This document shows positions 5,311 to 57,080 of a stretch of DNA of 64,000 nucleotides, one piece after another. The stretch covers positions 1 to 64,000 of IMG/VR virus record IMGVR_UViG_3300050021_000500. The stretch is one strand, 5' to 3'. Origin of the DNA: a virus. The notes under the pieces are model-generated. The model did not search any database. It was not told the origin of the DNA and saw only the letters and a program-made list of their open reading frames with translations. The translations under genes and the position numbers were made by a program. Each line of letters starts with the position of its first letter. Within the stretch, counting starts at the first letter, position 1.

Positions 5311-5416
5311 CTTAAAGCGGTGAAAGGCTTCGCGGATGGATGGCTGTGACGGTGCGGGCTCGTGATGCGCCGCCGGCCCAACCGTCGCCGTAGGACGGCG
5401 CTGGGCCGGCTCTGGG
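5311..5416 (+). repeat. Structured hairpin element A (forward, left boundary of cassette A-D)
   Basis: Member of the eleven-copy family described in the findings. It starts with the AAAGGCTTCG block and a variable stretch, then CGCCGCC and the 9-bp arm GCCGGCCCA. Next come ACCGTC, the inner stem GCCGT-AGG-ACGGC, GC, the matching arm TGGGCCGGC and the terminal CTCTGG. The CTCTGG end points toward the cargo genes at 5.5-7.3 kb, with element D closing the unit in inverted orientation. Confidence 0.75.
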
Positions 5417-5458
5417 GCCAACTGTCCACATGAAGTCCAAGGCAATTCTGACGCGCTA

Positions 5459-5487
5459 TTGACAAAACACGCGAAAGCATGCGTAAT
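5459..5487 (+). promoter_or_regulatory. Putative promoter for the 5.5 kb HTH gene
   Basis: A perfect -35 box TTGACA is followed by a 17-base spacer and a weak -10 (GTAATG). It lies between element A and the HTH gene start. Transcription from it would give almost no leader. Confidence 0.35.
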
Positions 5488-5493
5488 GGAGTT

Positions 5494-5718
5494 ATGAATT
5501 CTGTGCAGGCGACACAACTCAGCGAGCGGCAAGTCGAAGAAGAATACGGCATCAACTCGCGTACTCTACAGGGGTGGCGAACCCGCAAGAAGGGGCCGCC
5601 GTACTTGAAAGTCGGCGGGACTTTGGTACGCTACAACCGCATCGAATTGGAGGCGTGGATAGAGTCGAGCCCGCATTATCTTTCAGTGCCCGGCGAACTG
5701 GCGAGCCGGGATGCCTAA
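5494..5718 (+). CDS. Small helix-turn-helix DNA-binding protein (excisionase/AlpA-like)
   Basis: 74 residues with an HTH_17-type winged helix: 'LSERQVEEEYGINSRTLQGWRTRKKGPPYLKVGGTLVRY' pattern, i.e. helix, turn, recognition helix, then the Gly-Pro-Pro-Tyr/Lys-Val-Gly wing typical of excisionase-like proteins. Such proteins bind direct repeats and control excision or transcription. The ATG preceded by GGAG was chosen over one 15 bases upstream. It is the first gene inside cassette A-D, reads opposite to the late operon around it, and overlaps the next gene by 8 bases. Confidence 0.75.
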   Translation: MNSVQATQLSERQVEEEYGINSRTLQGWRTRKKGPPYLKVGGTLVRYNRIELEAWIESSPHYLSVPGELASRDA

Positions 5719-6238
5719 AATACGCCGGTGGCGTGAACGTAGAACAGTCAAACCACTTCCGGGTCCTATCCTCAAGGGGACCATGCATCTGTTGCTGGAA
5801 GTGTTTGACGTATGTCCGGAAAGCGGCTATGTGCCGCACGTCAATCCGAACATTGCGCGCAGGTATGAAGCCCTTAGCGAGGAAGCCTTGTCAACACTGT
5901 TGTCCCAATTCCCAGACGTCCTGCTGCACAGTGATTGGGAAAGTGACGATGGAGGCCAGGCCGTGGTGATGATGGTAATGGCCCTTCGCCAAATTACCCA
6001 TGGCGTTATCCAGGCAACCGATCATGAATTGGACATTTGGGCCAGGAACCTAACCGTCATGATGCCCCAGGAAGGTCTTCGCCGACTTCACTATGTGGAG
6101 ATTGATGACTTTCCGGGGCCTACGTCTGGGCTCTGGCGCGAAGATTTGAGCTTCCATCAACGCATGGGCTGGGCGGCCCCAACACTGGAATCCACTCTGG
6201 CTGAAGTAAAACGGCGTGGTCTGGACTTCCCTGTTTGA
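5711..6238 (+). CDS. Hypothetical protein in cassette A-D (175 aa)
   Basis: 175 residues, overlapping the HTH gene, so the two are probably co-translated. The N-terminus is very basic (PKIRRWRERRTVK); the rest is mixed alpha/beta without recognisable motif, cysteines or membrane segment. It is tail-to-tail, with 82 bases of overlap, with the 115-aa gene on the other strand. Its pairing with an excisionase-like protein suggests a regulatory or accessory role, but no function can be assigned. Confidence 0.65.
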   Translation: MPKIRRWRERRTVKPLPGPILKGTMHLLLEVFDVCPESGYVPHVNPNIARRYEALSEEALSTLLSQFPDVLLHSDWESDDGGQAVVMMVMALRQITHGVIQATDHELDIWARNLTVMMPQEGLRRLHYVEIDDFPGPTSGLWREDLSFHQRMGWAAPTLESTLAEVKRRGLDFPV

Positions 6239-6504
6239 CAATGGATGACGACTTTACGGACGCCCTGCAATGTTTCGATAGAGGCCGTGTCCCGGACACG
6301 GAGAATCACTTCGGGGTCTCCATCGGATGAATGCGAAAGCTGCTGTTGTAAGCCGTTTTGAATTGCGTCGAGTACTGCTTCGTGACACGGCAAGTCGCCA
6401 GTCAGAACGACATGTATGGTTCTCGTTTTGTCGTGACAGTATACGCCCTCAGCGAGTTTGTGCATGCCCTTGAACGACGGCGTCAGTCGTGTGAGTTCTT
6501 TCAT
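6157..6504 (-). CDS. Hypothetical protein downstream of XRE regulator (115 aa)
   Basis: 115 residues starting MKELTRLTPSFKG after GGAGAATC. It lies 21 bases after the XRE-type regulator on the same strand, so the two may form a two-gene unit like a toxin-antitoxin module. No RelE/HigB-like features are seen, and the C-terminal part overlaps the opposite gene. Treat as an unrecognised partner. Confidence 0.45.
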   Translation of the reverse strand: MKELTRLTPSFKGMHKLAEGVYCHDKTRTIHVVLTGDLPCHEAVLDAIQNGLQQQLSHSSDGDPEVILRVRDTASIETLQGVRKVVIHCQTGKSRPRRFTSARVDSSVGAAQPMR

Positions 6505-6525
6505 AATGATTCTCCGGACAGCGCC

Positions 6526-6810
6526 TCAACCCCCGTCGGGCGGACGCTGATATCGACTGCCTTGTCCGAGTGTGACCAGGAAGCGCATCAGGCGGTCAAT
6601 AGAAAACTGGGTCAGGCGGCCGCGTTTCAGCGCGCTCACTTTCGGCTGGTTGATGCCGAGCAGTTTCGCCGCCTCTACCTGGGTAAGTCCCCGCTGTTCA
6701 ATGATCTTGTTGATGTGGCGCACGAGGTCCGACTTTGCCAGCATTTCGCCAGCATTAGCGAAGCCAATGTCAGCAAAGACATTCCCGCTCCCAGCGATAC
6801 TTTTAGCCAT
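6526..6810 (-). CDS. XRE-family antitoxin-like regulator (COG5606/HigA-like)
   Basis: 94 residues. Residues about 8-22 (NVFADIGFANAGEML) and the HTH 'INKIIEQRGLTQVEAAKLLGINQPKVSALKRG' followed by FSIDRLMRFLVTLG fit the small XRE proteins that act as antitoxins next to RelE-like toxins. The ATG following AAAGGGAG was chosen over one four codons upstream. No RelE-like toxin is visible beside it; the neighbours are the exported paralogue upstream and the 115-aa protein downstream. It may instead regulate the cassette. DNA-binding role secure, partner unknown. Confidence 0.8.
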   Translation of the reverse strand: MAKSIAGSGNVFADIGFANAGEMLAKSDLVRHINKIIEQRGLTQVEAAKLLGINQPKVSALKRGRLTQFSIDRLMRFLVTLGQGSRYQRPPDGG

Positions 6811-6839
6811 TCTCCCTTTCATCCACTACGCCAAATGCT

Positions 6840-7262
6840 TCATGCTGCGGCGGAGCGCCCCACCCAGACGGCGGCCCTTCGCCGTGAAGTCGATGCCAGC
6901 CATTCGGCGTGCTCTAGCTCATCGGCCCGGAATTCAAGCACCTCAACCTCCGTCGATAATCGGTGCGTTCCGTCAGCGATTCGCATAGCGGCATTCCAGA
7001 AAACGCATTTGAAGGACTGACCCCCCACCATTCCCATGCGCTTGTTTTCGATGGAGGTGATGGTGCATTCCGTGAAACCCGGGAAGTCCGCACGGAGTTC
7101 CGATTCTAAGCGTTTCACTTCCGCCCAATACGGGGGGCATCCGGTGCCCTCCGGTATCACCCAATAAGGGTAGCATTCGGTTCCCTTCGGTTTCAGCTTC
7201 CCAATGAGAGGCAGCGCTCCCAGGAGAGGCAACAGGGCAAAAAGTTGGCGGCGATTCATCAT
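6840..7262 (-). CDS. Exported paralogue of the 1.9-2.3 kb late protein (140 aa)
   Basis: 140 residues. The N-terminus has a leader with twin arginines and a hydrophobic core (MMNRRQLFALLPLLGALPL), so it is probably exported or membrane-anchored. Residues about 70-105 repeat the TSIEN-(R/K)-R-x-GMVGGQ / AA-R-ADGTH-x-ST domain of the late-operon protein at 1908-2318. A Pro/Tyr/Cys-rich segment links leader and domain. It is the only cassette A-D gene with a clear relative elsewhere in the window. Function unknown. Confidence 0.7.
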   Translation of the reverse strand: MMNRRQLFALLPLLGALPLIGKLKPKGTECYPYWVIPEGTGCPPYWAEVKRLESELRADFPGFTECTITSIENKRMGMVGGQSFKCVFWNAAMRIADGTHRLSTEVEVLEFRADELEHAEWLASTSRRRAAVWVGRSAAA

Positions 7263-7279
7263 GGTTCAATCTTAGCTCC

Positions 7280-7378
7280 CCCAGAGCCGCTTCAGCGGGC
7301 CGTCTTCGGCCCGACGGTTAAAGCGGCGGCGCCGAGCAAGCGCCCCGCGCGCTGAGGCCAAGGCCCGATAGCTTTAAG
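7280..7378 (-). repeat. Structured hairpin element D (reverse, right boundary of cassette A-D)
   Basis: Read on the minus strand: TAAAGCTATCGGG, a variable stretch, CGCCGCCG, arm GCCGCTTTA, ACCGTC, inner stem GGGCCG-AAGA-CGGCCC, GC, arm TGAAGCGGC, CTCTGG. One arm pair is a G-T wobble; the rest is complementary. The block begins exactly at the stop codon of the upstream glycosyltransferase fusion, whose TAA is part of the element. Confidence 0.75.
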
Positions 7379-9494
7379 CGTTAACGTTCGTTCTCCAGCG
7401 GATCCGGTCCACCTTGCCGCCCAGCGTGTCCGTTCGCAGATCCTTCCGTTCCGTGGGGACGGCGAGGATCATGGCCGACACGATGCCGCCGAATACGTTG
7501 ACCGGGTTGTTACGAAAATTGTTCGGGTTATAGAGCGGGATGTGGTGCTGATACAGCCGGTAATTGTGCTCCGTGAGCCAGAGGCCCAAGGCTTGCGTCG
7601 ATCCCTCGCGGTCGTTCTCCACGTAGATGAGCGGCCGGCAGCGCGCGATGGTCTGCTCCGCGCCTTTGAGGACGTCCAGCTCGTGACCTTCGCAGTCAGC
7701 CTTGAGGAAGTCCAGACATTGCAGTTGGAAACAATCGAGCGTATTCTGCATGACGGTGGGGCTCAACGGGTCGGTTGGCTGTTCTATAACGGCGCACCCG
7801 CCGGGGTTCCGTGCGTCGAATCCCTGCATCCGGATCTCGCGGCAACTGGCACCGAGAGCGGAGCGGAAACTATAGACGCCGGGGCGCCCCGCATTCTCAC
7901 ACAATATCTGGAAGACACCGAGTTGTGGCTCAAACGCGAAGACGCAACCGGTGGGGGCCACGATCTGCGCCAGCACCACGGTATGCGCGCCGATGTTGGC
8001 TCCGGCTTCCACGACCACATCGCCCGGCTTCAGCAGGCGGCGGAAGAGGCCGGCTTCACCTTCAGACCATTCCCCATAAAGGTCCAACGATCGGCCGAGC
8101 CATTGGTCTGTGGGGTAGAACGTCATCGGACCGTAGCGGCACTGGCGGGTGATGGTAGTTGCTCTTATAGGCTCGACACCAGTGTTCGTTTGCAGCGTCT
8201 GTACAGCGTCGGACAAGTCCCTCTTCACCCGCTCGATCACGGCCTGCCAATCGTTTGTCTCCTCCTGCCGGTAGAGCCGCATGGAGGGATACCATGGGGT
8301 CCGCGTCCCTTCCGCGCCCCACCGCCAGTCGCTCAACGTCGAAAGCAGCACCCACACCGGCTTGCCCAGCGCGCCCGCCAAGTGCGCCATACCGGTATCG
8401 ACCGAAATCACGAGGTCCAGATGGGCCATCTCGTCGGCTACGTCTGCCCAATCGTGGCAAAGGTCCCGCAGGTTATGCAGGCCCGATTCCGTGTCCTTCA
8501 TCTGAAGCGACACGAATTCGACGCCCGGAACCTCGAGCAGGGGCTTCAGGTGTTCGAAGGCCATGGAGCGGAACTCATCGCGCGCGTGCTTCGGGTTGCC
8601 CTTCCAGGAAAGACCCACGCGAAAGCTCGATGTCCGGGTGACCGCACGACCGAGATATGGCCCTGCGGTTTCGAGAATCCGAGCCGTACCCAGTTTCAGC
8701 GGCAAGCTGCTCATGCCCACCCAGCAATCCAGTTGCACGGTATGCGCCTCGGCATCCGAGGTCACAATTCGAGCCCAGGGAAACGCGCGGGCGAACAATC
8801 GCGCCAACTCCGGATAGCCGTAGACGATTACGTTGGCGCCCAGGTCATGCAGCAGCGGCAAATAGCGCGAGAACATGATCTCGTCGCCGAGCCCCTGCTC
8901 CCGGACCACCATGATGGTCTTGCCAGCGAGCGGCTCGCCATCCCACTCCGGGTATTCATCCATCGGGGCAACCAGGCTGATGCGGCTGGGCCGGTGCTCG
9001 TAGTCCTTCCACCCCTGCGCATAATCGCCTAGTTTCAACTTCAGGCAGGCGCGGGCGAAGAGCAGATCGTGGTTGCCGGGTTCGATCTGGAGCCCATCGC
9101 AGAGAGCCCAGCCGGCGCTTTCCACCAGGCCCTGTTGCTCGTAGATCGAATAGAGCTCGAGGTAGGCCGAGACGCACATCGGGTCGGCCATCAGGGCCTG
9201 CCCACACCAGTTGTTCGCCTGAGCAAAGTCTCTCAGGTGGTCGCACGCCAACGCCAGATTGATACACGGCAAGGGGTCCTTGCTATCCAGACTGGCCGCC
9301 TGGATGAAGCACTCACGCGCGCGTGTCCACTCTTTGGCTGCCATATGGCAGCGGCCGAGGCCGTTCCAGGCTTTGGCGTTGGCTTGGTCCAACTCCAGCG
9401 CCCATTCGTAGACCCGCCGGGTGATTTCCGACTCCTTGGGCTTGGCACCGGCCAGCTCGGCGAGGAAAGCGGCGAGTTCGGTGGCGCACGTCAT
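7374..9494 (-). CDS. TPR - glycosyltransferase - FkbM methyltransferase fusion (706 aa)
   Basis: Three domains in one 706-residue protein. Residues about 5-165 are tetratricopeptide repeats (NAKAWNGLGRCHMAAKEW, KDPLPCINLALACDHL, CVSAYLELYSIYEQQG). Residues about 175-440 match TPR-linked GT-B glycosyltransferases, with WDGEPLAGKTIMVVREQGLGDE, FRVGLSWKGNPKHARDEFRSM and LVISVDTGMAHLAGALGKPVW. Residues about 465-665 are an FkbM-type SAM methyltransferase (VVEAGANIGAHTVVLAQ for SAM, FAFEPQ, LKADCEGHELDVLKGAE). It could add and then O-methylate a sugar on a virion or surface glycan. It lies among capsid genes, two genes downstream of the portal side. The TAA is supplied by element D. Confidence 0.88.
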   Translation of the reverse strand: MTCATELAAFLAELAGAKPKESEITRRVYEWALELDQANAKAWNGLGRCHMAAKEWTRARECFIQAASLDSKDPLPCINLALACDHLRDFAQANNWCGQALMADPMCVSAYLELYSIYEQQGLVESAGWALCDGLQIEPGNHDLLFARACLKLKLGDYAQGWKDYEHRPSRISLVAPMDEYPEWDGEPLAGKTIMVVREQGLGDEIMFSRYLPLLHDLGANVIVYGYPELARLFARAFPWARIVTSDAEAHTVQLDCWVGMSSLPLKLGTARILETAGPYLGRAVTRTSSFRVGLSWKGNPKHARDEFRSMAFEHLKPLLEVPGVEFVSLQMKDTESGLHNLRDLCHDWADVADEMAHLDLVISVDTGMAHLAGALGKPVWVLLSTLSDWRWGAEGTRTPWYPSMRLYRQEETNDWQAVIERVKRDLSDAVQTLQTNTGVEPIRATTITRQCRYGPMTFYPTDQWLGRSLDLYGEWSEGEAGLFRRLLKPGDVVVEAGANIGAHTVVLAQIVAPTGCVFAFEPQLGVFQILCENAGRPGVYSFRSALGASCREIRMQGFDARNPGGCAVIEQPTDPLSPTVMQNTLDCFQLQCLDFLKADCEGHELDVLKGAEQTIARCRPLIYVENDREGSTQALGLWLTEHNYRLYQHHIPLYNPNNFRNNPVNVFGGIVSAMILAVPTERKDLRTDTLGGKVDRIRWRTNVNA

Positions 9495-9830
9495 TTATGC
9501 CGCCGCCTTTGTCGTCACGTTCCGCGCGGCGCCGCACCGGGCGCACACGTCCTCCAGCCAATCGTGCCGCATCCAAGGTGCCCGACACCGCGGAGCCTTA
9601 CGCGCGCGGCTCGCCTTTGAAGGCGAGGAGGTAACGGCGGCAAGCGTGCCGCGGAAGCTGCCGTCCGGAGCAACCCGGTACACGCGCTCCCGGTCCATTT
9701 CGATCACGTCGCCCGGCTTGCCGCGGTACAGCGTGCCACGCCCGCGCTCCGCGCTCCGGCGAACCGCCGCTTTGCTGGTCCCCCGAGCAAAGGTCCTCTC
9801 TGCCGCCAACTTCTGTAATCCCGTCATCAT
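9495..9830 (-). CDS. Basic protein with C-terminal zinc-binding motif (111 aa)
   Basis: 111 residues, strongly basic, with a central SH3-like stretch (TLYRGKPGDVIEMDRERVYRVAPDGSF pattern) and a C-terminal H-x5-C-x2-C cluster (HDWLEDVCARCGAARN). ATGA overlap with the capsid-fragment gene upstream supports this start. Found between the capsid-like fragment and the glycosyltransferase fusion. Family not recognised; a nucleic-acid-binding or virion accessory role is possible. Confidence 0.7.
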   Translation of the reverse strand: MMTGLQKLAAERTFARGTSKAAVRRSAERGRGTLYRGKPGDVIEMDRERVYRVAPDGSFRGTLAAVTSSPSKASRARKAPRCRAPWMRHDWLEDVCARCGAARNVTTKAAA

Positions 9831-10006
9831 ATGAGTTTCTCCGTGAATCCCCCGTGCAGCGCCAGCAAGTCGTTTTCGACTTTCTGCGCGATCGCCGCCA
9901 CCGCTGGTGCCATGTACATCTTCAGTAGATCCGGTACCGCCAGCACCTTGGTCACATCCGAAATCTGGAACGTCGCTTCCGCATGAACTCCCGTTTCTTC
10001 CGCCAT
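9827..10006 (-). CDS. Capsid-helix fragment paralogue (59 aa)
   Basis: 59 residues whose centre repeats the major capsid protein: HAEATFQISDVTKVLAVPDL against HVESTFNIPDATKVLASVDL, then APAVAAIAQKVENDLLAL against RPAIIAIATRIENDLLAC. This is the spine-helix region only. It has its own AAGGGGG ribosome-binding site and an ATGA overlap with the next gene, so it appears to be expressed rather than debris. A role as a capsid-assembly modulator is inferred; it could also be a decaying partial duplication. Confidence 0.65.
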   Translation of the reverse strand: MAEETGVHAEATFQISDVTKVLAVPDLLKMYMAPAVAAIAQKVENDLLALHGGFTEKLI

Positions 10007-10017
10007 CGAAGTCCCCC

Positions 10018-10176
10018 TTACCAATTTCTCCAACACCAGCCGAGCCAATACGCCGTGAAGCGGCGCCGGCCATGCCAGTTGAATTGCGGCACTAACTGGA
10101 AGCCCGTGATCGCGCGCACCGAATGATGCGGGCGCGGCAACCGGAACGCGAACTTACGCCACTGCCCCCACTTCAT
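10018..10176 (-). CDS. Small Trp/Arg-rich protein (52 aa)
   Basis: 52 residues (starts MKWGQWRKFAFRLPRPHH) rich in Trp, Arg and His. It begins inside the 3' end of the portal gene and ends 11 bases before the capsid-fragment gene, whose ribosome-binding site overlaps its stop. The dense composition and exact fit between neighbours support a gene. No family recognised. Confidence 0.5.
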   Translation of the reverse strand: MKWGQWRKFAFRLPRPHHSVRAITGFQLVPQFNWHGRRRFTAYWLGWCWRNW

Positions 10177-11764
10177 TTTTCGCCTGCTGTCGCGTGGCCA
10201 GCCGGTTGAAGCTCTGCGCAAAGGCCTGCTGCTGTTGAGCTACCTGCTGATCCTTCCCTTGCTGCTCGCGTTCCGCCGTGGTAGGCGATGCGTCGATTTC
10301 GTCGAAGATCGTTTGCTTGATGTCTTCGTTGCGGTCTTCGAGATAGTCCGCCGCCACTCGCTTCATACAGGCTTTTTCCAGCGTCTTGCTGGCTTCGAAG
10401 ATGCCAAGATCCAGCATCTCCTGGGCAGTCCCAATGGATTCGGTCACCGGCTCCGTGGTGAAGGTGAAACCAGAAACGTCCAGAGTGGTTGTCTCGTCGT
10501 CTCCCCCGCGGGCGACTACCACGTCGGCGAATACGTCCTGCATGACGTTGATGATGCGGTCGCCGAAGCCGTTGAGAATTTCGTTGGCCGGCATCATGTC
10601 TATCTCTTTCGAATAGCCGGAGGCTCCCGACGCCGAAGCGCTCGAAGATCGTCCCTGCGCCTGAAGGTAGAAACTTCGGTAGATTTCCTCGCGCAAGGTA
10701 TCGAGGCGGGCCTGCGAAAGCGCGTAACTGGCCGCCGGCGGCGCCGCCCATTCGAACTTGTCGTTCGGGCCGAACATCAGGTAGCCCACTTGCGAGATGG
10801 TCATCGGCCCGGGATCGCGGTCGCTGAACACAATCGGCATGGGGATGTTGCCCATGAACAAGCCCCAGGCCAGCGAATTGTCCTGGTTCAGGTGATCGAC
10901 CAATTGCAGGAAGCTGCGATTGCCCAGCCACAATTCCTCAGGCAACACGATACGGCGGATGGGCACCCGATTGACCGCGGCCAGGGCGTGCGTTCCCTCA
11001 TCTTCCAACTCGGCAAAGGCGCTTTCCTGCTGGATGTTTTTCCCGTTGGAATCGATCAGTTGAATGGTCTGACCGTCCGTGAATCCGTCCTGGTTCTTGC
11101 CCTGGATCGCCTTCTCGGTGCCGTCCCACTTGTAGACCTGGTATTTCTGCCGGTCGAAGTAATACCAGCGGATCACGGTCCCCGATGCTTCGAGAAACGT
11201 GCGCTGGTCCTCGATGGCTTTGATGACCACCCATTCCAGGTTGCCGGCTTCGTCCGTCGCCCAATTCAGCACGTCCTGCGGGGCGTACTGCACCACGTAG
11301 GGCTTGTCGAGGCCCATCTGCTGTTCATCGGCGCGGCTCTGCGGCTCCGCCAGGGCTTTCGGGCGGTCCGTCAGTATCCAGGCTCGGCCATAGAGCGCCA
11401 AGTTGCGGAACGTCGCCCGGTGAAAATCGCTGTAGGAGCTCGCGGCGCGGTCGCAATTGCCAAGGAACTCCTTGTACCAGGGATCGGCGCCATCCGGCTT
11501 GATGTTGATCTGTGGATTCCTGCGCCAGAGCTGCGAGGTATACCAGCCCAAGACGGTGCCCAGGATGTTCTGGTAGGTCAACCGGCGGATTCTTTCTGCG
11601 TATACATCAACGAGCTCCTTCGGCGCCCTCACCAGGAACTGCTCGGCCGCCTGCTTGAGCCGGATTCCCCCGGAGGCGAGAAGCTCGAACATCTCCCAGG
11701 CCTCAGAGTAAAGCACATGCTCAGGGGAGCGGCGGTTGAGTTTGGCAACGGGGACTTGGGGCAT
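10154..11764 (-). CDS. Phage portal protein (536 aa)
   Basis: 536 residues, the size and position (after terminase, before scaffold and capsid) of a portal. N-terminal helical region (EAWEMFELLASGGIRLKQA), central wing with WVVIKAIEDQRTFLEASGTV and a DSNGKNIQQESAFAEL strand segment. It then has the conserved 'NRVPIRRIVLPEELWLGNRSFLQLVDHLNQDNSLAW' stretch of DUF4055-type portals, and a Gln-rich C-terminal helix (QQQQAFAQSFNRLA) like portal barrel tails. It would form the dodecameric DNA gate at the capsid vertex. The subfamily call is from remembered motifs. Confidence 0.85.
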   Translation of the reverse strand: MPQVPVAKLNRRSPEHVLYSEAWEMFELLASGGIRLKQAAEQFLVRAPKELVDVYAERIRRLTYQNILGTVLGWYTSQLWRRNPQINIKPDGADPWYKEFLGNCDRAASSYSDFHRATFRNLALYGRAWILTDRPKALAEPQSRADEQQMGLDKPYVVQYAPQDVLNWATDEAGNLEWVVIKAIEDQRTFLEASGTVIRWYYFDRQKYQVYKWDGTEKAIQGKNQDGFTDGQTIQLIDSNGKNIQQESAFAELEDEGTHALAAVNRVPIRRIVLPEELWLGNRSFLQLVDHLNQDNSLAWGLFMGNIPMPIVFSDRDPGPMTISQVGYLMFGPNDKFEWAAPPAASYALSQARLDTLREEIYRSFYLQAQGRSSSASASGASGYSKEIDMMPANEILNGFGDRIINVMQDVFADVVVARGGDDETTTLDVSGFTFTTEPVTESIGTAQEMLDLGIFEASKTLEKACMKRVAADYLEDRNEDIKQTIFDEIDASPTTAEREQQGKDQQVAQQQQAFAQSFNRLATRQQAKNEVGAVA

Positions 11765-11774
11765 TCAGGGAGCC

Positions 11775-12107
11775 TTAATTTGAAACGAGCGTAACTTTCA
11801 CTTTTTGGCCCGAGGTGCCATGGACCCAGAAGACCGCGGGATCCACCAGGTATGCGCCGGACACCGGATCGTTGAAGCGGTCCAACGGCACGCCGGTCAC
11901 TGGGGCCGCGAGCTCCTGGATACTGACGCCCGTTCCATTGTTGGAAACATTGGCGAGTCCGACGTAGGCCGCGGCGCCGTTGCCGCGCAAGGGCTCGATC
12001 AGGACGCGCCGCGCCAGGGCATGTGCCGGCCAGTCGGTGACGCCGTTGGTGGGATCCGTCAATTGGATAGCGGTGGAACCGAAGGTAATCAAGGCTGAAA
12101 AGATCAT
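11775..12107 (-). CDS. Small beta-rich late protein (110 aa)
   Basis: 110 residues after AAAGGAG. Composition (Thr, Val, Gly, Asn) and motifs such as GAAAYVGLANVSNNGTGVSI resemble small virion proteins that report fibre or decoration folds. It sits between the GT-A glycosyltransferase and the portal. No cysteines or membrane segment. Unrecognised; virion protein likely from context. Confidence 0.7.
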   Translation of the reverse strand: MIFSALITFGSTAIQLTDPTNGVTDWPAHALARRVLIEPLRGNGAAAYVGLANVSNNGTGVSIQELAAPVTGVPLDRFNDPVSGAYLVDPAVFWVHGTSGQKVKVTLVSN

Positions 12108-12153
12108 AAAACTCCTTTGCGCGAGAAACCGCTGGCTTCAGCCGCGCGGTTGC

Positions 12154-13137
12154 TTATGCCCCATACCCCACAAACGGGACCGCAGGGGCTGCCGGCGGGA
12201 CCACATCATCTCCGCGGCCTTCCAGATACGCGATAATCTCGTTTTCCATGTCCGGCTTGTTGCCCACGAACTGCCAGAGGCCCTGCGGATCCTTCACCAG
12301 GTCGGTTGACGCATCGAAGGCGTACTTGGTCAAAATCTGCCACCGCGTGCTGTAGCCGCGCTGGTTGATCGGCCCGTGATAGTAGTGGATCGCGTGATTG
12401 TCCACCACCCCGATGCGCCCGTGCAGCAGCGCGGCGCGTGCCGCCCATTGCTCGAGCGCCCGGCAGTATCCGGGGCTAACCATTTGCTTGCGCAGGTACG
12501 GATCCGTCAGCCCCAACAGGGCGAAAATCATGTGCCAGTCGGCGCTGCCCACGGGCTCGGTGTCCAGTAGGCCGCCCAGCGTCTGGTAGGCTGAACGCGT
12601 CATTGCCCATGCTCCGCCGGTGGCGCCCAGCCATCCGGTCCCCTCTGCATCGGGGCGCTTGCCCTGCCGCCAGGCTCCCATGAAACTGGGCATCGTGCTT
12701 TCGTGCCGGAACCCGGACTGCAAGGCGCTGTAGCTCGTGAACAACTGCACTACCGGATAACGCTGCATCAGGTGGATGGCCTCGTAGGGCCAGTCCGGCC
12801 GCGTCATCTGCATATCGGCGTCGATGAAGGCCAAGTACTGGCACTCCGGGCCCATGCGCTGCACGGCGATATTTTGCAGGTTCTCCTTGTACCACATGTC
12901 CTGATTGGTGCGCAGTTGGATATGCAGCGGGTTGCCGGCTTCGGTCAGTTCGAACGCCCGTCTGCCATAGGCCAGTTCCACGGTGTGGAGGACAACGCCC
13001 GACGCCGCCATGTGCTCCGCGAAACAGCGGTAGTGCATGTAGCGGCTACGGAAACGGTCCGGGTTGAATACGGCTGCGACCACGTGCAGACGGTCTTCGA
13101 TTGGTTTTACGTGAGGGGAAACGTGCGAGCAGTTCAT
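12154..13137 (-). CDS. GT-A type glycosyltransferase (family 2-like, 327 aa)
   Basis: 327 residues with a GT-A fold signature. An N-terminal strand (HVVAAVFNPDRFRSRY) is followed by a nucleotide-sugar DxD motif in 'YLAFIDADMQMTRPDWPYEAI' and a 'GWLGATGGAWAMTRSAYQTLGGLLD' acceptor-region signature. 'GSADWHMIFALLG' and the C-terminal YHGPINQRGYSTRW complete the domain. It would transfer a sugar to a virion protein or surface glycan. With the GT/FkbM fusion it gives the late operon two glycosylation genes. ATGA overlap with the metallopeptidase gene downstream supports the operon. Confidence 0.82.
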   Translation of the reverse strand: MNCSHVSPHVKPIEDRLHVVAAVFNPDRFRSRYMHYRCFAEHMAASGVVLHTVELAYGRRAFELTEAGNPLHIQLRTNQDMWYKENLQNIAVQRMGPECQYLAFIDADMQMTRPDWPYEAIHLMQRYPVVQLFTSYSALQSGFRHESTMPSFMGAWRQGKRPDAEGTGWLGATGGAWAMTRSAYQTLGGLLDTEPVGSADWHMIFALLGLTDPYLRKQMVSPGYCRALEQWAARAALLHGRIGVVDNHAIHYYHGPINQRGYSTRWQILTKYAFDASTDLVKDPQGLWQFVGNKPDMENEIIAYLEGRGDDVVPPAAPAVPFVGYGA

Positions 13138-13505
13138 TTCTTTTTGATTCTGTTTTGGGGCTTTTGAAGCTGCTGTCCCGTCGCCGGATGTTCTTTGTCG
13201 AACCCAGTCAGCATCCCGTTGTCTGCCAGCACCTGATACATGCCAAAGGAAAGCGCGGTAACGATTTCTTCTTCGAGCTTGTCATCCTTCAATCGTTTCG
13301 ATAGCCCGGTCTGCCATGCGACCGCGTGCATGATCTCGTGCAGAAGACACTGTTTTTTCTTCTGGTCCGTGGTGTTGGGGTCGATGTAAATCGTCTGGGT
13401 CGCGTAGTGACAAGACCCGAAGACGCTGCCCTCTCTGGACACAGCGTCCGACTCCACCACCTTCCACTCGAACCCGTTGATCTTGAGCGTCGCCGGCAGT
13501 TTCAT
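13134..13505 (-). CDS. HExxH zinc metallopeptidase-like protein (123 aa)
   Basis: 123 residues with a zincin motif HEIMHAVAWQTG near residue 68, preceded by 'TIYIDPNTTDQKKKQCLL'. This fits small phage metallopeptidases of the ImmA/IrrE or minigluzincin type. It starts at MKLPATLKINGF, with its ATG overlapping the preceding stop (ATGA). A polybasic tail (QNRIKKK) ends it. The role could be virion protein processing or cleavage of a host regulator; substrate unknown. Confidence 0.72.
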   Translation of the reverse strand: MKLPATLKINGFEWKVVESDAVSREGSVFGSCHYATQTIYIDPNTTDQKKKQCLLHEIMHAVAWQTGLSKRLKDDKLEEEIVTALSFGMYQVLADNGMLTGFDKEHPATGQQLQKPQNRIKKK

Positions 13506-13801: not shown

Positions 13802-13841
13802 AACGGGTGTGGTTGGCTGCCCTATCGTGTGGTTATGTGTT

Positions 13842-13860
13842 GGGCGGCATCACACCGCCC
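13842..13860. other. Intergenic hairpin
   Basis: A GGGCGG ... CCGCCC stem of six base pairs with a seven-base loop in the gap between the 82-aa and 99-aa genes. No T run follows on either strand; it could affect mRNA processing rather than terminate. Confidence 0.3.
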
Positions 13861-13886
13861 TGTCAGATTCAGCTCCGCTAGCGTTC

Positions 13887-50286: not shown

Positions 50287-50854
50287 GGAGTTTCGGAAGT
50301 TCTACCGCGGTGCCGCCTGGAGGGATGCGCGGCACCGCATCCTCGCCCGGGCCGGTGGGAAGTTCAATCTCTCGGGCAACTACCTGGGATCAGCCAGGTG
50401 CGAGGCCTGCGGGAAGCCAGATAGGACGAGGGTTGAAACGTTCAGCGATCACGCCATGGGCTTCCTGGGGCACCGCGGCCTACCGGTGATGTTCTGGCGC
50501 ACCGCAGGATCACCCTGGCGCGATTGGGATGGCGTGGACGACGGCCAGGACCACCGTAATCACCCGCATCTTGTGCCCGAAGGAGATGGTTGCCTCGTCG
50601 CGAATACCGATTTGCGCGCTTTCTGGGTGGCTGAAAGGAAAGCCATGAAGTCCCGCGTCTGGTTTCTCTCTACTCCTCACGCCACGGGCGCCTGTGCGAC
50701 TTGTACGGCGCCCGCCAGGGGCTTCGACTCCCAGGCAGTGACCCGATGCTGTGGGGAGTGCGAGAAGGGCTGTCAGTGCGGCTTCCAGGCCCGACAGCGG
50801 GAGATTGTACGTGAGATGCCAATTCAGCACAAGGCGAGGAGGGCTACGGCATGA
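50273..50854 (+). CDS. HNH-type endonuclease candidate (193 aa)
   Basis: 193 residues. 'EFRKFYRGAAWRDARHRILARAGGKFNLSGNYLGSARCEACGKPD' resembles the start of HNH proteins (CxxC finger). The expected His pairs may be in 'DDGQDHRNHPHLVPE' and a 'LVANTDLRAFW' end. A second Cys-rich part follows (CATCTAPARG, CCGECEKGCQC). Its last 14 codons are copied 300 bases downstream. Confidence 0.6.
   Translation: MPIRKEFRKFYRGAAWRDARHRILARAGGKFNLSGNYLGSARCEACGKPDRTRVETFSDHAMGFLGHRGLPVMFWRTAGSPWRDWDGVDDGQDHRNHPHLVPEGDGCLVANTDLRAFWVAERKAMKSRVWFLSTPHATGACATCTAPARGFDSQAVTRCCGECEKGCQCGFQARQREIVREMPIQHKARRATA
50798..50838 (+). repeat. 41-bp direct repeat, copy 1
   Basis: Begins GCGGGAGATTGTACG and ends in CACAAGGCGA. 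Matches copy 2 at 51095-51135 with two mismatches. Lies at the 3' end of the HNH-like gene and encodes REIVREMPIQHKA. Confidence 0.75.
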
Positions 50855-51081: not shown

Positions 51082-51155
51082 ACCGCTGTAAGCCGCGGGA
51101 GATTGTTCGCGAGATGCCAATTCAGCACAAGGCGATGCCGGAGGTAAAGCGATGA
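51063..51155 (+). CDS. Possible 30-aa remnant peptide, GTG start
   Basis: 30 residues, mostly the copied REIVREMPIQHKA tail. It overlaps the 76-aa gene and abuts the next start (ATGA). Probably debris of a duplicated gene end. Confidence 0.25.
   Translation: MLVKLLNRCKPREIVREMPIQHKAMPEVKR
51095..51135 (+). repeat. 41-bp direct repeat, copy 2
   Basis: Matches copy 1 at 50798-50838 with two base differences. Sits just before the next gene's start, as copy 1 does, so the repeat marks a duplicated gene boundary. Confidence 0.75.
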
Positions 51156-52030
51156 CGACAGAAGAAGCTGTACAAGCGATCACGGTGGCGCTGGATCGCC
51201 GGTGCTGCCATCAGTGCCACGGCGCGGGGACGGTTAGCGTGATGGGTGGGCAGGTGTTCGAGACGGATTCGGATGAAGAGGCCCAACTGGCGTACCAAAC
51301 TGTGGCTTGCCCGACATGCATCAAGGTCCGAGCCGACGCTCTCGCCGCGCTGGAGGAGATGCGGAAGGACTCGGAGCAAACGGCAGAAGAGCCGACGCAT
51401 ATCTACCACGCTTGTGGCTATATCGATGAGGGCGGTCCTGGATTCCCTTGCACAAATTCTGTTGAGCTTGGGAAACATTGTGAAGGCCATACAGATCCGG
51501 CAGAGCAGAAGACCGCTAATGCCGACGCTGCCATCGAACAGGCCGAGGATGAGCATATACGACGATTTGGCGGCGAATGGGGAGATGAGCATACGGAAGA
51601 TCGTAAGGCTTGGGCGGCACAGAGGGCTGGGGCCGCTTGCCAGTGCCCGGCGCGGATAGCGATCCGGTTATTTCTATCCGGGCTCGCGCCAGCCTCCCTT
51701 GGTAGACAGATGTATTTTTTGAAAGATCGGACGGAACTTGAATCCGCCCTCTCCGCCCGCTGCCCATGCTGCGCGGAGCGGGATGAAGCGATCCACACGC
51801 GCAGCCTGGCTCAAGCGGCGAGCACGCGGGATCTGGAGGCGAAGCGGGCAGTGGAAGAAAAATTACGGCTTGCGCTGGACATAAATGACCTCCTGCGGGC
51901 GCGGGTGCCGTTGGAGCCTGGCGCGAACACAAATACGGCGCCGGTAAATCCGCTATTGGTGGGGACTAATGCGCCGAAAGCGTTAAAGCCGCAGGGCCTG
52001 GCGGGCATTGAGAGCGGAGGGAAAAGCTGA
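51152..52030 (+). CDS. Cys-rich hypothetical protein (292 aa)
   Basis: 292 residues. DnaJ-like finger 'CCHQCHGAGTVSV' paired with 'CPTCIKVR' near the N-terminus; a second Cys/His group 'HACGYIDEGGPGFPCTNSVELGKHCEGH'; further Cys (ARCPCCAERD); and a coiled C-terminal part. Several zinc sites likely. No family recognised. Stop overlaps the next start. Confidence 0.65.
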   Translation: MTTEEAVQAITVALDRRCCHQCHGAGTVSVMGGQVFETDSDEEAQLAYQTVACPTCIKVRADALAALEEMRKDSEQTAEEPTHIYHACGYIDEGGPGFPCTNSVELGKHCEGHTDPAEQKTANADAAIEQAEDEHIRRFGGEWGDEHTEDRKAWAAQRAGAACQCPARIAIRLFLSGLAPASLGRQMYFLKDRTELESALSARCPCCAERDEAIHTRSLAQAASTRDLEAKRAVEEKLRLALDINDLLRARVPLEPGANTNTAPVNPLLVGTNAPKALKPQGLAGIESGGKS

Positions 52031-52719
52031 TGCCTGAGAAGTTGCTGAAGCCCCCCGCGCTGAGGAGCGACCCGCTCGCGATCCCGCCGGCCCAGCCGTC
52101 GTCCGCAAAGCCGGGCGCTGGACCGACTCTGAGCCATGAGGAGTTGCGGAAACGTGCAGTCCAGTGGTTGACCAATACCAAGCGCTGTGGCGTCGTCTTG
52201 TCGGAGATCGTTACAGGTTGCTCCGAGATCCCCGACGCCATCGGGTGGCGCGGCCACACCTCCTACATTGTGGAATGCAAAACAAGCCGTTCCGACTTCC
52301 GTGCGAATAAAACCAAAATTCACGCGCGCTGTAACCGTGGCGTCGGACAGTTCCGCTACATCATGGTGCCGAGATGCCTGACGGATCAGGTATTGAAATC
52401 AGAAGCGCCGGTACGGCCTGAAGACCTGGAAGGTTCGGACTACGGATTACTCTGGTGCTCGGCAGAATCCGGCACGGTTCGAGTGATGAAGGAAGCGACC
52501 GTGCGCGAACAATGCCAGGATGACGAGATCACGATGCTAGTGTCGGCATTGCGGCGCGTGCGCGCAAGAGAGTTCTTAATTCTTGTCCAAGAAACGCAGC
52601 AGGACTCCAGAGCCGATGCTGCGCCGCGTTCCGGCGGCGACGGTAGCATCGGCGGCGTGGAGAGAGCGCCCCGAACCACAGAGCAACCCGCCCCAGCACC
52701 TTCTCAGGAGAACGCTTAA
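52030..52719 (+). CDS. PD-(D/E)XK-type nuclease flanked by hairpin elements (229 aa)
   Basis: 229 residues. The middle (about 35-190) has a nuclease pattern: helix 'ELRKRAVQWLTNTKRCGVVLSEI', 'SEIPDAIGW' supplying D, then 'TSYIVECKTSRSDF' supplying E-x-K, and a 'GVGQFRYIMVPR' strand. This resembles MmcB-like DNA endonucleases. Residues about 5-32 are from element J (PPAQPSSAKPGAGP) and about 196-215 from element G (ADAAPRSGGDGSIGGVERA). Likely cleaves DNA; specificity unknown. Confidence 0.68.
   Translation: MPEKLLKPPALRSDPLAIPPAQPSSAKPGAGPTLSHEELRKRAVQWLTNTKRCGVVLSEIVTGCSEIPDAIGWRGHTSYIVECKTSRSDFRANKTKIHARCNRGVGQFRYIMVPRCLTDQVLKSEAPVRPEDLEGSDYGLLWCSAESGTVRVMKEATVREQCQDDEITMLVSALRRVRAREFLILVQETQQDSRADAAPRSGGDGSIGGVERAPRTTEQPAPAPSQENA
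52046..52132 (+). repeat. Structured hairpin element J (forward, left boundary of cassette J-G)
   Basis: CTGAAGCCCCCC, a variable stretch, CGCGATCCC, arm GCCGGCCCA, GCCGTC (one change from ACCGTC), inner stem GTCCG-CAAAG-CCGGGC, GC, arm TGGACCGAC, TCTGAG. The most diverged forward copy (two A-C mismatches in the arms). In frame within the nuclease gene. Confidence 0.65.
52607..52690 (-). repeat. Structured hairpin element G (reverse, right boundary of cassette J-G)
   Basis: Minus strand: CTCTCCACGCCGCC, arm GCCGATGCT, ACCGTC, inner stem GCCGC-CGGAAC-GCGGC, GC, arm AGCATCGGC, CTCTGG. The core is nearly identical to element F; the outer block is degenerate. Confidence 0.75.
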
Positions 52720-54261: not shown

Positions 54262-55289
54262 GGGCACCGCTCTGCGTCGAACTGTTTGCTGGCCGATTTG
54301 GTTGGGGCCGCGGCTTTGTGTCTGAAGGCTTCCGAGTGGTCGGATTCGACATCGTTCACGAACCCTATCACGGTGAGGTTCCAAACGGCTGCCAACTCGT
54401 GCTTCAGGATGTGCTCACCCTCCATGGCTCACAGTTTAGGGACGCAACGTGCATCGTGGCTTCGCCGCCCTGCCAACGCTTCAGCTATATGGCGATGCCC
54501 TGGACGCGAGCGAAAGCACAAGCCGCTGAGATCCGCGCGGATAAAAGCGGCGCCGCGATGGCAGAATTGACTGCCTTGTTCGACTCTTGCTTCCGTATCC
54601 AGCACGAAGCCAGCGAAGCGGCTGGCCGCCATATCCCGCTGGTGGTAGAAAACGTGAAAGGTGCCCAACCTTGGGTTGGGAGGGCGAGGGCTCACTTTGG
54701 AAGCTACTATTTATTCGGCGATGTGGAATCGGTTAGCGGCGCCATCGTGGCATCGGTTCCCCGGTTCGGGCAAGTGCTGCGCGTCAAGCGGTCGCAGAAA
54801 TTCAACCCGGACGGATCGCAGCATGGTCAAGGCTCATGGTTTGCCATTGCCGACTCCAAGAATAGGGGCGCGCAGAAACGTGATGGCCGCGACTCCCACG
54901 CCTTTGAAAACGGGCTCGAGTCATCACCGAGTTTCAACGGCGCGGAACATGAAACGCGGCACGTGAAAGTGCCGGGCATGAATTGGAGCGGGTCGGATCA
55001 GCCAGGATATAAGGCTGTATGTTTCCGAGATGAAGGCGCGCGGCAACGAAAGAACGACGGTGGCTCCTGGTTCGCAGTGGCGCACAATACCAAAAGCGGC
55101 ACAGGGCAGAATCCGGTGAACGGACTGAAAACGGTCGGCCACGTGAACAAGCGAGATGGATTCGACCACACGCGACGCCTGACGAACCAGAGGGAATCGG
55201 ACGCCGTGAAGCAGCATCTATCCGGGCCGGAGTGGGCGCGGCATCCGTATCCTCCAAATCAGACAGCCGCAAAGCGGCCTCGGCCATGA
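54258..55289 (+). CDS. C5-cytosine DNA methyltransferase (Dcm-like)
   Basis: 343 residues. SAM motif I 'CVELFAGRFGWGRGF', catalytic motif IV 'IVASPPCQRFSYMAMPW' with the nucleophilic Cys, motif VI 'LVVENVKGAQPWVG' (ENV), then 'HFGSYYLFGDV'. The region after residue 180 is a long variable target-recognition part; the usual C-terminal motif IX-X is hard to see, so the enzyme may be divergent. Phage copies generally shield DNA from host restriction. Start overlaps the previous stop. Confidence 0.85.
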   Translation: MRAPLCVELFAGRFGWGRGFVSEGFRVVGFDIVHEPYHGEVPNGCQLVLQDVLTLHGSQFRDATCIVASPPCQRFSYMAMPWTRAKAQAAEIRADKSGAAMAELTALFDSCFRIQHEASEAAGRHIPLVVENVKGAQPWVGRARAHFGSYYLFGDVESVSGAIVASVPRFGQVLRVKRSQKFNPDGSQHGQGSWFAIADSKNRGAQKRDGRDSHAFENGLESSPSFNGAEHETRHVKVPGMNWSGSDQPGYKAVCFRDEGARQRKNDGGSWFAVAHNTKSGTGQNPVNGLKTVGHVNKRDGFDHTRRLTNQRESDAVKQHLSGPEWARHPYPPNQTAAKRPRP

Positions 55290-55375
55290 TCGCGGAGATT
55301 CCCTTCGACCTGGCGCGATACATCGCGCGATGTTTCAAGCCCGCAACAGCGGGTAGATCGGAGACCACTGCATGA
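55286..55375 (+). CDS. 29-aa peptide between methyltransferase genes
   Basis: 29 residues (MIAEIPFDLARYIARCFKPA ...) with ATGA overlaps on both sides, so probably translated in the chain. Its DNA has GCGCGATACATCGCGC, a near-palindrome. Unrecognised. Confidence 0.45.
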   Translation: MIAEIPFDLARYIARCFKPATAGRSETTA

Positions 55376-55689
55376 CGCCCCAACAATTTGCCGACCGCAT
55401 GAACCGGATGACGGGTGAGGAGATCGCCCAAGCGATGGAATCGCTGCCTACAGACGCGCTGGAGTGGGGTGTGAAGTTCGAGGCACTGGGCAACATGCCT
55501 GAAAAGCTGCCGAAGGGTTCCACGCTGAAACGTGACCCGTGCGTGATCCCGCCAGCCCAACCGTCGCCAGCAGAGCCCGGCGCTGGGCCGGCTCGGAAAT
55601 ACTGTAACTGCATCCACGGCACCGATGCCGGCCGGTACTGCGTGATCCGGCACGCTCCGTACTGCGCGCTCCATGGGGAGCACGCTTGA
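55372..55689 (+). CDS. Small protein with element-encoded middle and Cys-rich end (105 aa)
   Basis: 105 residues. Residues 1-40 (TPQQFADRMNRMTGEEIAQAM) look like a common small phage domain. Residues about 43-75 come from element K (PPAQPSPAEPGAGPA), and the end 'YCNCIHGTDAGRYCVIRHAPYCALHGEHA' is Cys/His-rich, a likely zinc site. An insertion of the element probably joined two short genes. Confidence 0.6.
   Translation: MTPQQFADRMNRMTGEEIAQAMESLPTDALEWGVKFEALGNMPEKLPKGSTLKRDPCVIPPAQPSPAEPGAGPARKYCNCIHGTDAGRYCVIRHAPYCALHGEHA
55511..55595 (+). repeat. Structured hairpin element K (forward, left boundary of cassette K-H)
   Basis: CGAAGGGTTCCACGC, a variable stretch, GTGATCCC, arm GCCAGCCCA, ACCGTC, inner stem GCC...GGC, GC, arm TGGGCCGGC, then CTCGG in place of CTCTGG. 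In frame inside the 105-aa gene, near-identical in protein to the element I and J segments. Confidence 0.7.
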
Positions 55690-57080
55690 GCTATCGGATC
55701 ATCTGCGGTGACGCGCTGACAGTGCTGAAGACGATGCCCGAGGAAAGCGTGCAGTGCTGTGTGACGAGTCCGCCGTACTGGGGCCTCCGCGATTACGGCG
55801 TGGTCGGGCAACTTGGCTTGGAGCCCACCATCGAACTGTACATCGCCCATATCGTCGAGGTGTTCCGTGAAGTGCGGCGGGTGCTCAAGAACGATGCGAC
55901 GCTCTGGCTGAACATGGGGGATTCCTACTGCTCCGATGCCGGCGCCGATAGAAAACCCACCACGCTTGCCGGAGCCCGTGTCCCTTCTGGATGGACAAAT
56001 AGAGCGCAGCCACATCGGGTTCATGCACTCCGTAAGGGCAAAGATAAAGACCCGAAGCGCGGGGCGTCCGCCGACAGCGCCGTGATTTCTGCGGTAACCG
56101 GCCTAAAACCGAAAGACCTCTGCATGATCCCGGCGCGCGTCGCGTTGGCGCTGCAAGCGGATGGCTGGTGGCTCCGCTCAGAGATTGTGTGGCACAAGCC
56201 CAACCCGATGCCTGAGAGCATCCGGGATCGTCCGACCAAAAGCCACGAGATGCTCTACCTACTGTCGAAGAGCGAGAGGTACTTCTACGACGCGGACGCC
56301 ATCAAGGAGCCGACTACGGGCAGCGCCCACGATAGAGCGCGTAAGAACCGCGCCGCCGATGGGCAGAAGACGCTGCCGACAGCGGAACGAAACGGGGTGC
56401 GACCGGCATTTGAGCGCCTCGGACGCGAAGGCCTGAACAGTCGCATGCACCAAGACCGCGACGCCAATCATTCGAGCGAGCGGAAGGTCCGCGCGCCCGG
56501 CGTGAACCCGAAGGCGCAGAAGTGGCCCAACGCATGGAGTGCTGAAGACGGCCGCCACGATGGAATCGGCAACGGTCGTTTCCGCCCGAGCGGCAACAAA
56601 GAGCGCAAACTCGCGGGCCCGGCGAATGGACGCCTGGAGACGCACATGGGCAGCGGCGTGCCCTGGCCGCCGCAGATTCGTCCCAAGCAGAACGAATCAT
56701 TTTCGGCAGCGGTAGTGCGAACAGTGGAGCGGCGCAACCGGCGCACCGTCTGGACCATCGCAACGAAGCCATTCAGCGGCGCCCACTTCGCCACCTTCCC
56801 ACCGAAGCTGATCGAGCCCTGCATCCTGGCAGGCTCCCGGCCCGGTGACGTGGTGCTGGATCCGTTTGGGGGCGCGATGACCACGGCCCTGGTGGCGCAA
56901 GAGCATGGCAGGGATTCAGTGATGATCGAATTGAAGCCCGAGTACGTGAAGATGGGCGACGCGCGACTCGCTGACGCCAGAGCCGGTTCAGCGCCGGTCC
57001 TCCGGCGACGGTTTGAACCCGGCGGTGTGGAGCAAGCGGACACGGGCGCGGCGAAGAAACCACGGAGCCTTTTTCAGTAA
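55686..57080 (+). CDS. N4-cytosine/N6-adenine DNA methyltransferase (beta class) with element-derived tail
   Basis: 464 residues, TTG start overlapping the previous stop (TTGA). Catalytic 'CVTSPPYWGLRDYGVVGQLGLE' (SPPY suggests N4-cytosine or N6-adenine), a target domain in the middle, and the C-terminal SAM site 'PGDVVLDPFGGAMTTALVA'. Order (catalytic motif before SAM site) is beta class. The last 30 or so residues (AGSAPVLRRRFEPGGVEQAD onward) are read from element H and are unrelated to methylases. Third methyltransferase of the genome. Confidence 0.88.
   Translation: MSYRIICGDALTVLKTMPEESVQCCVTSPPYWGLRDYGVVGQLGLEPTIELYIAHIVEVFREVRRVLKNDATLWLNMGDSYCSDAGADRKPTTLAGARVPSGWTNRAQPHRVHALRKGKDKDPKRGASADSAVISAVTGLKPKDLCMIPARVALALQADGWWLRSEIVWHKPNPMPESIRDRPTKSHEMLYLLSKSERYFYDADAIKEPTTGSAHDRARKNRAADGQKTLPTAERNGVRPAFERLGREGLNSRMHQDRDANHSSERKVRAPGVNPKAQKWPNAWSAEDGRHDGIGNGRFRPSGNKERKLAGPANGRLETHMGSGVPWPPQIRPKQNESFSAAVVRTVERRNRRTVWTIATKPFSGAHFATFPPKLIEPCILAGSRPGDVVLDPFGGAMTTALVAQEHGRDSVMIELKPEYVKMGDARLADARAGSAPVLRRRFEPGGVEQADTGAAKKPRSLFQ
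56977..57078 (-). repeat. Structured hairpin element H (reverse, right boundary of cassette K-H)
   Basis: Minus strand: AAAGGCTCCGTGG, a variable stretch, GCTTGCTCCACACCGCC, arm GCCGGGTTCA (one extra G), ACCGTC, inner stem GCCGG-AGGA-CCGGC, GC, arm TGAACCGGC, CTCTGG. Encodes the C-terminus of the methyltransferase on the opposite strand. Confidence 0.76.

Follow-up and report, generated by a model that had tools for sequence, protein, structure and literature searches.

The virus record IMGVR_UViG_3300050021_000500 of IMG/VR contains a family of hairpin elements that are mostly paired inverted ends of gene cassettes, an arrangement overlooked by an earlier reading of the same DNA (the original prediction). 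With rather more than even confidence, we think that these elements are the structured inverted ends of non-autonomous mobile phage gene cassettes, probably read as folded single-stranded DNA (ssDNA) by an enzyme supplied in trans. Our confidence is higher for the pairing and the covariation, and lower for the enzyme, than for the statement as a whole; the mobility of the cassettes is fairly well supported, and the enzyme is what we infer. The window analysed here comprises 64,000 nucleotides, positions 1 to 64,000 of a record of 83,914 bases.

Copies of the element and their inverted pairing

All of the eleven copies predicted in the window, on both strands, were found at their places (Table 1). 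An exact pattern of the fixed positions (CGCC, ACCGTC, GC-arm, CGGCTCT) gave 12 matches in the window, corresponding to nine of the eleven copies, three of them matching twice, and none in 100 dinucleotide shuffles; copies J and K were missed by it. The covariance model built from the eleven copies, as had been proposed, retrieved 13 copies from the whole phage record. A second model, made from 25 copies with the extra two included and run with filters off, scored the 13 copies of the record at 71–97 bits and the next match at 13.1 bits, so that the record has thirteen members of the family, clearly set apart from everything else in it. The claim that no named element has this build also stands as far as Rfam goes: none of 4227 families matched the 64-kb window at its gathering score, and at E up to 5 the region 47800–48700 gave mir-343 alone (E 3.2).

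Along the record, the strands of the copies follow the order + - + + - + - + - + - + - (A D C B E I F J G K H, then the copies at 67.0 and 67.5 kb). Because each minus copy comes directly after a plus copy, 12 of the 13 copies form six inverted (+,-) pairs with their 3' ends facing inward, copy C being left over. Only 7 of the 1716 possible orientation orders give this arrangement (P=0.004). The pairs span 2.1 kb (A-D), 0.54 kb (B-E), 0.73 kb (I-F), 0.68 kb (J-G), 1.6 kb (K-H) and 0.55 kb (67-kb pair), and the ends are homologous from cassette to cassette while the enclosed cargo is unrelated. Moreover, the folded conserved strand points to the cassette interior at both ends, whichever strand the genes use. 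The outermost tips agree inside four of the six cassettes (permutation P=0.011), or five of eight when those of the related record G002 are added (P=0.007), perhaps because the two ends arose together or because the reaction demands it.

Structure of one end

One end of about 105 bp is formed by an outer block of about 55 bases followed by an inner hairpin. The outer block begins with a tip such as CTGAGAAGG or CGGTTAAAGG and continues through a weakly conserved stretch to GCTCG...CGCCGCC. From 5' to 3', the hairpin runs from a first arm of about 9 bases through ACCGTC, the inner stem with its loop and GC to the second arm and CTCTGG. In both stems the letters vary and the pairing is maintained. 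Counted within each of the 22 distinct copies that three records provide, Watson-Crick pairs occupy 116 of 132 arm positions; when the 3' arms were swapped between copies, 68.1 ± 5.9 of 132 were paired, with a maximum of 92 in 20,000 shuffles. In the 25-row alignment, 96.2% of the cells pair (77.8 after shuffling), 66 cells are changed on both sides (18.3 after shuffling), and the covariation score is 0.444 against 0.115 for shuffles, falling to 0.02–0.07 when the partner is slid by 1–3 columns. Two weaker measures on the same alignment separate less well: pairs with a double change number 9 against 6.8, a value reached by 18 of 500 shuffles, and further pair types 17 against 16.1, reached by 175 of 500. 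These covariation shuffles take no account of relatedness, and the alignment itself was fitted to the covariance model.

A selected structure with compensatory change is thus supported. The proposal of compensatory change in two stems holds insofar as both covary far above the controls, with the qualification that the outer arm contains mismatches in copies B, C, I, J and K; copy H and the single copy of record G003 carry one extra A. The other structural proposal, a fixed asymmetric bulge of ACCGTC opposite GC, needs correction: the letters are fixed, but the predicted fold does not have one open 6/2 loop. In 10 of 13 copies the predicted ssDNA fold has ACC bulged (AACC in H), G paired, T bulged and C paired. 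The hairpin combines bases lying outside the helix with stems of variable sequence, as integron attC sites do. Folding as ssDNA was compared with shuffles, and z was -1.98 or lower in ten of the 13 copies.

Relatives with an empty site, a relocated cassette and unrelated backgrounds

The element is not confined to one contig. Seven other viral records (G001–G007) carry it, two of them from phages with very little shared sequence. G001, G006 and G007 are 99–100% identical to the present record. G004, which is about 90% identical in pieces over 3975–16259, is without positions 5306–7393 and has 18 bases instead, with breakpoints about 12 bases from the tips of cassette A-D (5317 and 7382). In G005, the segment 52076–52660, that is, the J-G cargo with both hairpins as an inverted pair, is found at 99.66% identity in another location with unrelated flanks; the match extends about 7–10 bases beyond the arms of the hairpins, and neither outer block is present. 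The more distant carriers are G002 (76.6 kb), with 14 protein match rows to this record at 25–53%, and G003 (31.8 kb), with 3 such rows and one copy of the element. G002 has a lambda-type terminase and portal and the packaging genes of the present record differ; its eight copies comprise two pairs (67307+/67852- and 68061+/69068-) and four singles. From these comparisons, it seems that phages gain and lose the cassettes and that these pass from one bacterial virus to another, unrelated one.

A separate observation concerns the gene upstream of J, of which a piece of about 281 bases (51497–51783) recurs at 95% identity, out of context, at 5373–5653 of a further viral sequence, L320, which overlaps G005.

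Ends translated as part of the cargo proteins

Three cassettes, I-F, J-G and K-H, have ends that are read as protein, at the N- and C-terminal sides of open reading frames (ORFs). The left ends code N-terminal stretches of the MxEK...PPAQPSxAxPGAGP type, and the right ends code stretches of the RADAAPRSGGDGSIGGVERA type near the C-terminus, that of H being more divergent. In K-H the two ends fall in two successive ORFs, the first of which (55372–55689) contains ATGs in its reading frame both at 55372 and where the tip of K lies (55495). For A-D, B-E and C, the called genes begin outside the ends. Similar tails are found on G002 proteins; in addition, G002 retains at 71149–71246 (-) an outer block whose hairpin has been lost, and the ORF there still ends in a similar tail, STEARTLLRPTP.

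The borders of homologous proteins can be compared with those of the ends. In the 277-aa I-F protein, the left end codes residues 2–36 and the right end begins at 209; the whole 219-aa homologue of Burkholderia phage Mica aligns to residues 34–213, and residue 35 is where the match begins in each of the three phage records found. In the J-G protein (229 aa), the left end corresponds to residues 2–36 and the right end begins at 191. Its PHROG matches start at residue 24 or later and finish by 181, and among the 12 listed of 151 matching records four begin at residues 26–34 and all end by 201. The left border of J-G is less clean than that of I-F, because re-aligned homologues differ: the one from Leptospira LE1 aligns to residues 35–194, and that from Vibrio ValLY3 to residues 4–183, its N-terminal part matching poorly and chiefly through K and P residues. 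In G002, a phrog_4657 match stops at residue 196 of a 237-residue protein in which the right end begins at about 190.

Spread in sequence databases

Five DNA-pattern scans were run over 2.9 million viral contigs, and among the matches listed no carrier was found beyond seven contigs. The first scan gave 15 stretches, which a stem script divided into nine real ones (seven contigs) and six chance ones. The next two gave at least 147 new loci, all read by the stem script and 100 by the covariance model; only another stretch of the contig of G002 was real among them, the next best reaching 20.2 bits. The last two gave 38 new loci, all read by the model, of which again only the contig of G002 was real (next best 25.2 bits). 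Protein-based viral scans led to four loci, namely G001, G002, L320 and L361, the last being related to G002 (primase 72%) and having a shorter interval; no element above 11.5 bits is present in either L320 or L361.

In 84,980 species genomes, the exact pattern matched 114 stretches, none a true member by the stem script, and the covariance model, applied to 48 of the 114, gave at most 29.1 bits vs at least 67.9 for true copies. This genome pattern recovers 9 of the 13 copies in the present record, 2 of the 8 copies of G002 and not the single copy of G003; since many members of the family escape it, a host whose copies are few or divergent could have been overlooked. INPHARED queried by blastn with three copies and PLSDB with one copy gave no match.

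Search for a mobilising enzyme

The Y1 transposase family (PF01797) was absent from all five carrier records searched, and a tyrosine integrase was found in G002 only, among the carriers examined. In Pfam, 67 chosen ORFs of the present record gave Resolvase as the sole recombinase among 25 of 46 families listed, and 69 chosen ORFs of G002 gave no transposase or recombinase among 23 families, a set that missed G002's own integrase. Since no enzyme common to the carriers was found, the enzyme, if any, would presumably act in trans.

Weighing of the explanations

Several observations count against mobile cassettes with dedicated ends. A single empty site (in G004) and a single relocation (in G005) are available, and the cassette of G005 travels without the outer block, so that either this block has been lost there or the cassette truly ends at the hairpin. 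Reading the flanks by eye, we saw no consistent target-site duplication beside the tips, of the sort that a DDE-type insertion sequence or a MITE with cargo has next to its terminal inverted repeats: short direct repeats occur near A-D, near B-E and in G005, but they do not abut matching tips and are inconsistent between cassettes, that of G005 being an 8-base repeat near both sides. Of the 22 distinct copies, six have no partner (C, the one in G003 and half of the eight in G002), and the folds of copies B, J and K do not surpass those of shuffled sequences (Table 1). Eight of the 12 listed J-G homologues begin at residues 4–7, inside the left-end stretch, and no recombinase common to the carriers was found, in records that may be incomplete.

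The same facts can be read in other ways. The ends might be recombination linkers, that is, gene-border hairpins serving as short homologies for module swapping of the Red/Rad52 type, with no dedicated enzyme, as proposed for the PeSLs of T4-type phages, which PMC4503421 describes as mediating gene shuffling. The ends are indeed common to unrelated phages and located at cassette borders, the G005 match stops inside them and unpaired copies exist. Nevertheless, homology should preserve the letters, and the arm letters vary while the pairing stays; strict inverted orientation would be unnecessary, and the G005 flanks, inspected by eye, hold no recipient outer block (the tip motif is absent). We regard this explanation as unlikely. 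We give little credence to invertible or excisable segments of a serine recombinase, in which the ends would be crossover sites with matching tips for on/off switching or cargo exchange. Two small invertase-type enzymes are encoded in the record, the tips match within four of six cassettes and the sites are inverted; however, serine recombinases were rejected as a common mover, as none was found in G002, G003, G004 or G005 (records possibly partial), which have the same ends. Besides, the near-identical G001, spanning A-D, C and B-E, shows no inversion, and covarying arms are ill-suited to a crossover site read by sequence.

Two further explanations account for fewer facts. Selfish palindromes might insert singly in genes and spacers, in the manner of Rickettsia palindromic elements or of repetitive extragenic palindromes (REPs), with the pairing around cargo being secondary. 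Rickettsia palindromic elements are palindromes of about 100 bp lying in frame inside genes, and they insert singly, not as paired cassette ends. The present hairpins, also of about 100 bp, are found both in frame inside genes and between genes, and single copies occur, but all six pairs are oriented inward and the whole cassette is missing in G004, which makes this a rather poor candidate. Elements acting at the RNA level (processing sites, translational leaders or terminators of phage operons) we consider very improbable, and the RNA-motif origin that had been suggested is unlikely for the same reasons. Several copies do lie in 5' leaders, 10–20 nt before start codons (D, E), and the hairpin outline resembles that of an RNase III site. 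Against this, there are A-C mismatches on the mRNA strand of the coding copies I, J and K, there is no Rfam match at cut-off, and the strand that folds is turned toward the cassette interior irrespective of the direction of transcription. At B, and at the right end of each coding cassette, the transcribed strand is the complement of the conserved one, and an RNA would bear the mirror structure. As the conserved strand is sense at some ends and antisense at others, a DNA structure is more economical.

Coordinates and other features of the record

Table 1. Positions of the ends, cassettes and associated genes in the window, except for the last two copies, which lie outside it and are given in record positions.
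Feature	Position	Strand	Score (bits)	Fold z	Remarks
A	5317–5420	+	91.3	-2.66	left end A-D; tip CGGTGAAAGG, arm GCCGGCCCA/TGGGCCGGC
D	7276–7382	-	82.4		right end A-D; 10–20 nt before start codon of 6840–7262 (-)
Cassette A-D	5317–7382				HTH_17 gene 5494–5718 (+); ORFs 5711–6238 (+), 6157–6504 (-), 6840–7262 (-)
XRE-like ORF in A-D	6526–6822	-			assigned by eye
C	15917–16027	+	78.9		unpaired; upstream of DUF932 gene 16165–16881; also in relative G004
Small serine recombinase	20722–21288	-			DNA-invertase type; candidate for the serine-recombinase explanation
B	22515–22618	+	83.4	0.03	left end B-E
E	22949–23050	-	89		right end B-E; 10–20 nt before ATG of 101-aa gene 22633–22938 (-)
Second small serine recombinase	35484–36173	+			DNA-invertase type
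I-F ORF	47841–48674	+			phrog_18079 match at residues 35–149; DUF7666 match below cutoff
I	47844–47948	+	93		left end I-F; in-frame N-terminus MTEKMSKG...PPAQPSPAKPGAGPAL of ORF 47841–48674
F	48467–48573	-	101.7		right end I-F; complement codes RADAAPRSGGDGSIGGVERA near C-terminus of ORF 47841–48674
J-G ORF	52030–52719	+			phrog_631; weak Hjc match below cutoff
J	52033–52137	+	83.1	0.59	left end J-G; N-terminus MPEKLLKPP...PPAQPSSAKPGAGPTL of ORF 52030–52719
G	52602–52708	-	97.8		right end J-G
K	55498–55602	+	86.5	-0.39	left end K-H; in frame within ORF 55372–55689
Second K-H ORF	55686–57080	+			N6/N4 DNA methyltransferase, Pfam E 4.4e-47
H	56972–57078	-	90.8		right end K-H; complement codes methyltransferase C-terminus
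Extra copy	67002–67107	+			by covariance model
Extra copy	67448–67551	-			by covariance model

Other repeats were seen in the record. Two direct 107-base copies (27097–27203 and 27777–27883 of the window), 85% identical and 680 bases apart, have no match to the hairpin model; a 41-base direct repeat of 95% identity (50797–50837 and 51095–51135) lies upstream of cassette J-G; and weak model matches every 42 bases at record positions 74332–74577 (L159 10332–10577) suggest a short tandem repeat in a large minus-strand ORF. Among the ORFs of the record, taken together and not mapped gene by gene, there are matches to NusG-like, DksA/TraR-like, sigma-70-like and ParB-like families. Judged by length and sequence, the 706-aa ORF 7374–9494 is probably the one with the TPR, glycosyltransferase-9 and FkbM methyltransferase match.

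Possible mechanism and meaning

Pairing without fixed letters, together with fixed bulges, recalls proteins that read folded ssDNA. With the stem letters free and only the pairing and the bulges (ACC, T) fixed, a folded single strand might be what is recognised, by analogy with REPs and TnpA-REP or with attC sites. An enzyme from the host or from a co-infecting element would act in trans, and accessory genes could in this way be exchanged between phages. Within operons, the translatable ends would add common N- and C-terminal tails to the cargo proteins and leave the operon intact.

The acquisition of single accessory genes (morons) by phages whose operons nevertheless stay functional is largely unexplained. 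If the mobile-cassette explanation is true, the ends provide a concrete, searchable signature of dedicated phage gene cassettes, and the covarying bulged hairpin could be used as an in vitro substrate for finding the enzyme. Moreover, translated ends would account for tails common to unrelated phage proteins, which are otherwise annotated as protein parts.

Comparison with known systems

The titles and abstract openings of mainly non-subscription literature gave no description of inverted hairpin ends flanking phage gene cassettes. Several known systems share part of the design. PeSLs are likewise hairpins at phage gene borders linked to module shuffling, but they are promoter-stem-loop spacers, whereas the present elements are inverted flanks with covarying stems and are often translated. 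A promoter scan of the A-D region gave one site vs 0.8 expected, with a sigma-70-type consensus that may not be that of the phage.

Integron attC sites and CALINs are known in phages according to PMC9892861. As in those systems, phage gene cassettes are here bounded by folded hairpins and include a methyltransferase as cargo. Typical attC sites occur once per cassette, in a single direction and with R boxes, whereas the present ends form inverted pairs; phage attC sites of divergent direction are nonetheless reported in the same source. The attC-like origin that had been suggested was discarded, as the R-box pair RYYYAAC...GTTRRRY is present in 0 of 24 copies on either strand with 30 bases of flank.

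The suggested REP-like origin fares better as an analogy than as a classification. According to PMC3116915 and PMC8266576, REPINs and BIMEs with TnpA-REP (RAYT) are mobile non-autonomous units of two inverse structured palindromes, and the latter source lists integron integrases, relaxases, and IS200/IS605 and REP transposases as reading folded ssDNA. REPINs share with the present cassettes the paired inverse palindromes, a folded ssDNA hairpin with a bulge, a fixed unpaired motif and an enzyme usually encoded elsewhere, and they offer the best analogy for the mode of action. However, REPs measure 20–50 nt, carry a GTAG tag and a short linker and belong to bacterial genomes, while here ends of about 105 bp enclose 0.5–2 kb of gene cargo in phages, and no GTAG tag is conserved in the alignment. 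CGTC-tagged REPs, mostly inverted dimers with no known transposase according to PMC3733652, resemble the element in that the fixed ACCGTC holds CGTC just before the inner hairpin. Although this CGTC directly precedes the inner stem, a longer stem encloses it, and the predicted fold has two of the four bases paired. The definition given in the same paper comprises an unpaired CGTC (or TGTC/CCTC), an 8–9 bp stem starting from AT, a loop of 4–5 and a CCA tail. The present inner stems have about 4–7 pairs (by eye), begin with G-C in 19 of 22 copies (C begins with A-T; M and 2f have a mismatch) and are followed by GC as the tail; with stem length, start and tail all different, membership of the CGTC-REPs was rejected.

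TIRtrons, described in PMC3733652 as long terminal inverted repeats around RAYT-like genes, also have long ends, sometimes self-complementary, and some of these likewise occur as repeated families. They enclose their own transposase gene, in contrast to the ordinary accessory genes found here, among which no such enzyme was found. A bolder reading, which we offer tentatively and hold to be doubtful, is that of a phage cassette system analogous to integrons but of its own design, in which structure-read inverted ends would capture ordinary accessory genes and carry them between unrelated phages sharing a host, would give the cargo translated N- and C-terminal tails in operons, and would be driven by a folded-DNA recombinase acting in trans. 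In its design, the element is closest to REPINs and TIRtrons and is a member of neither.

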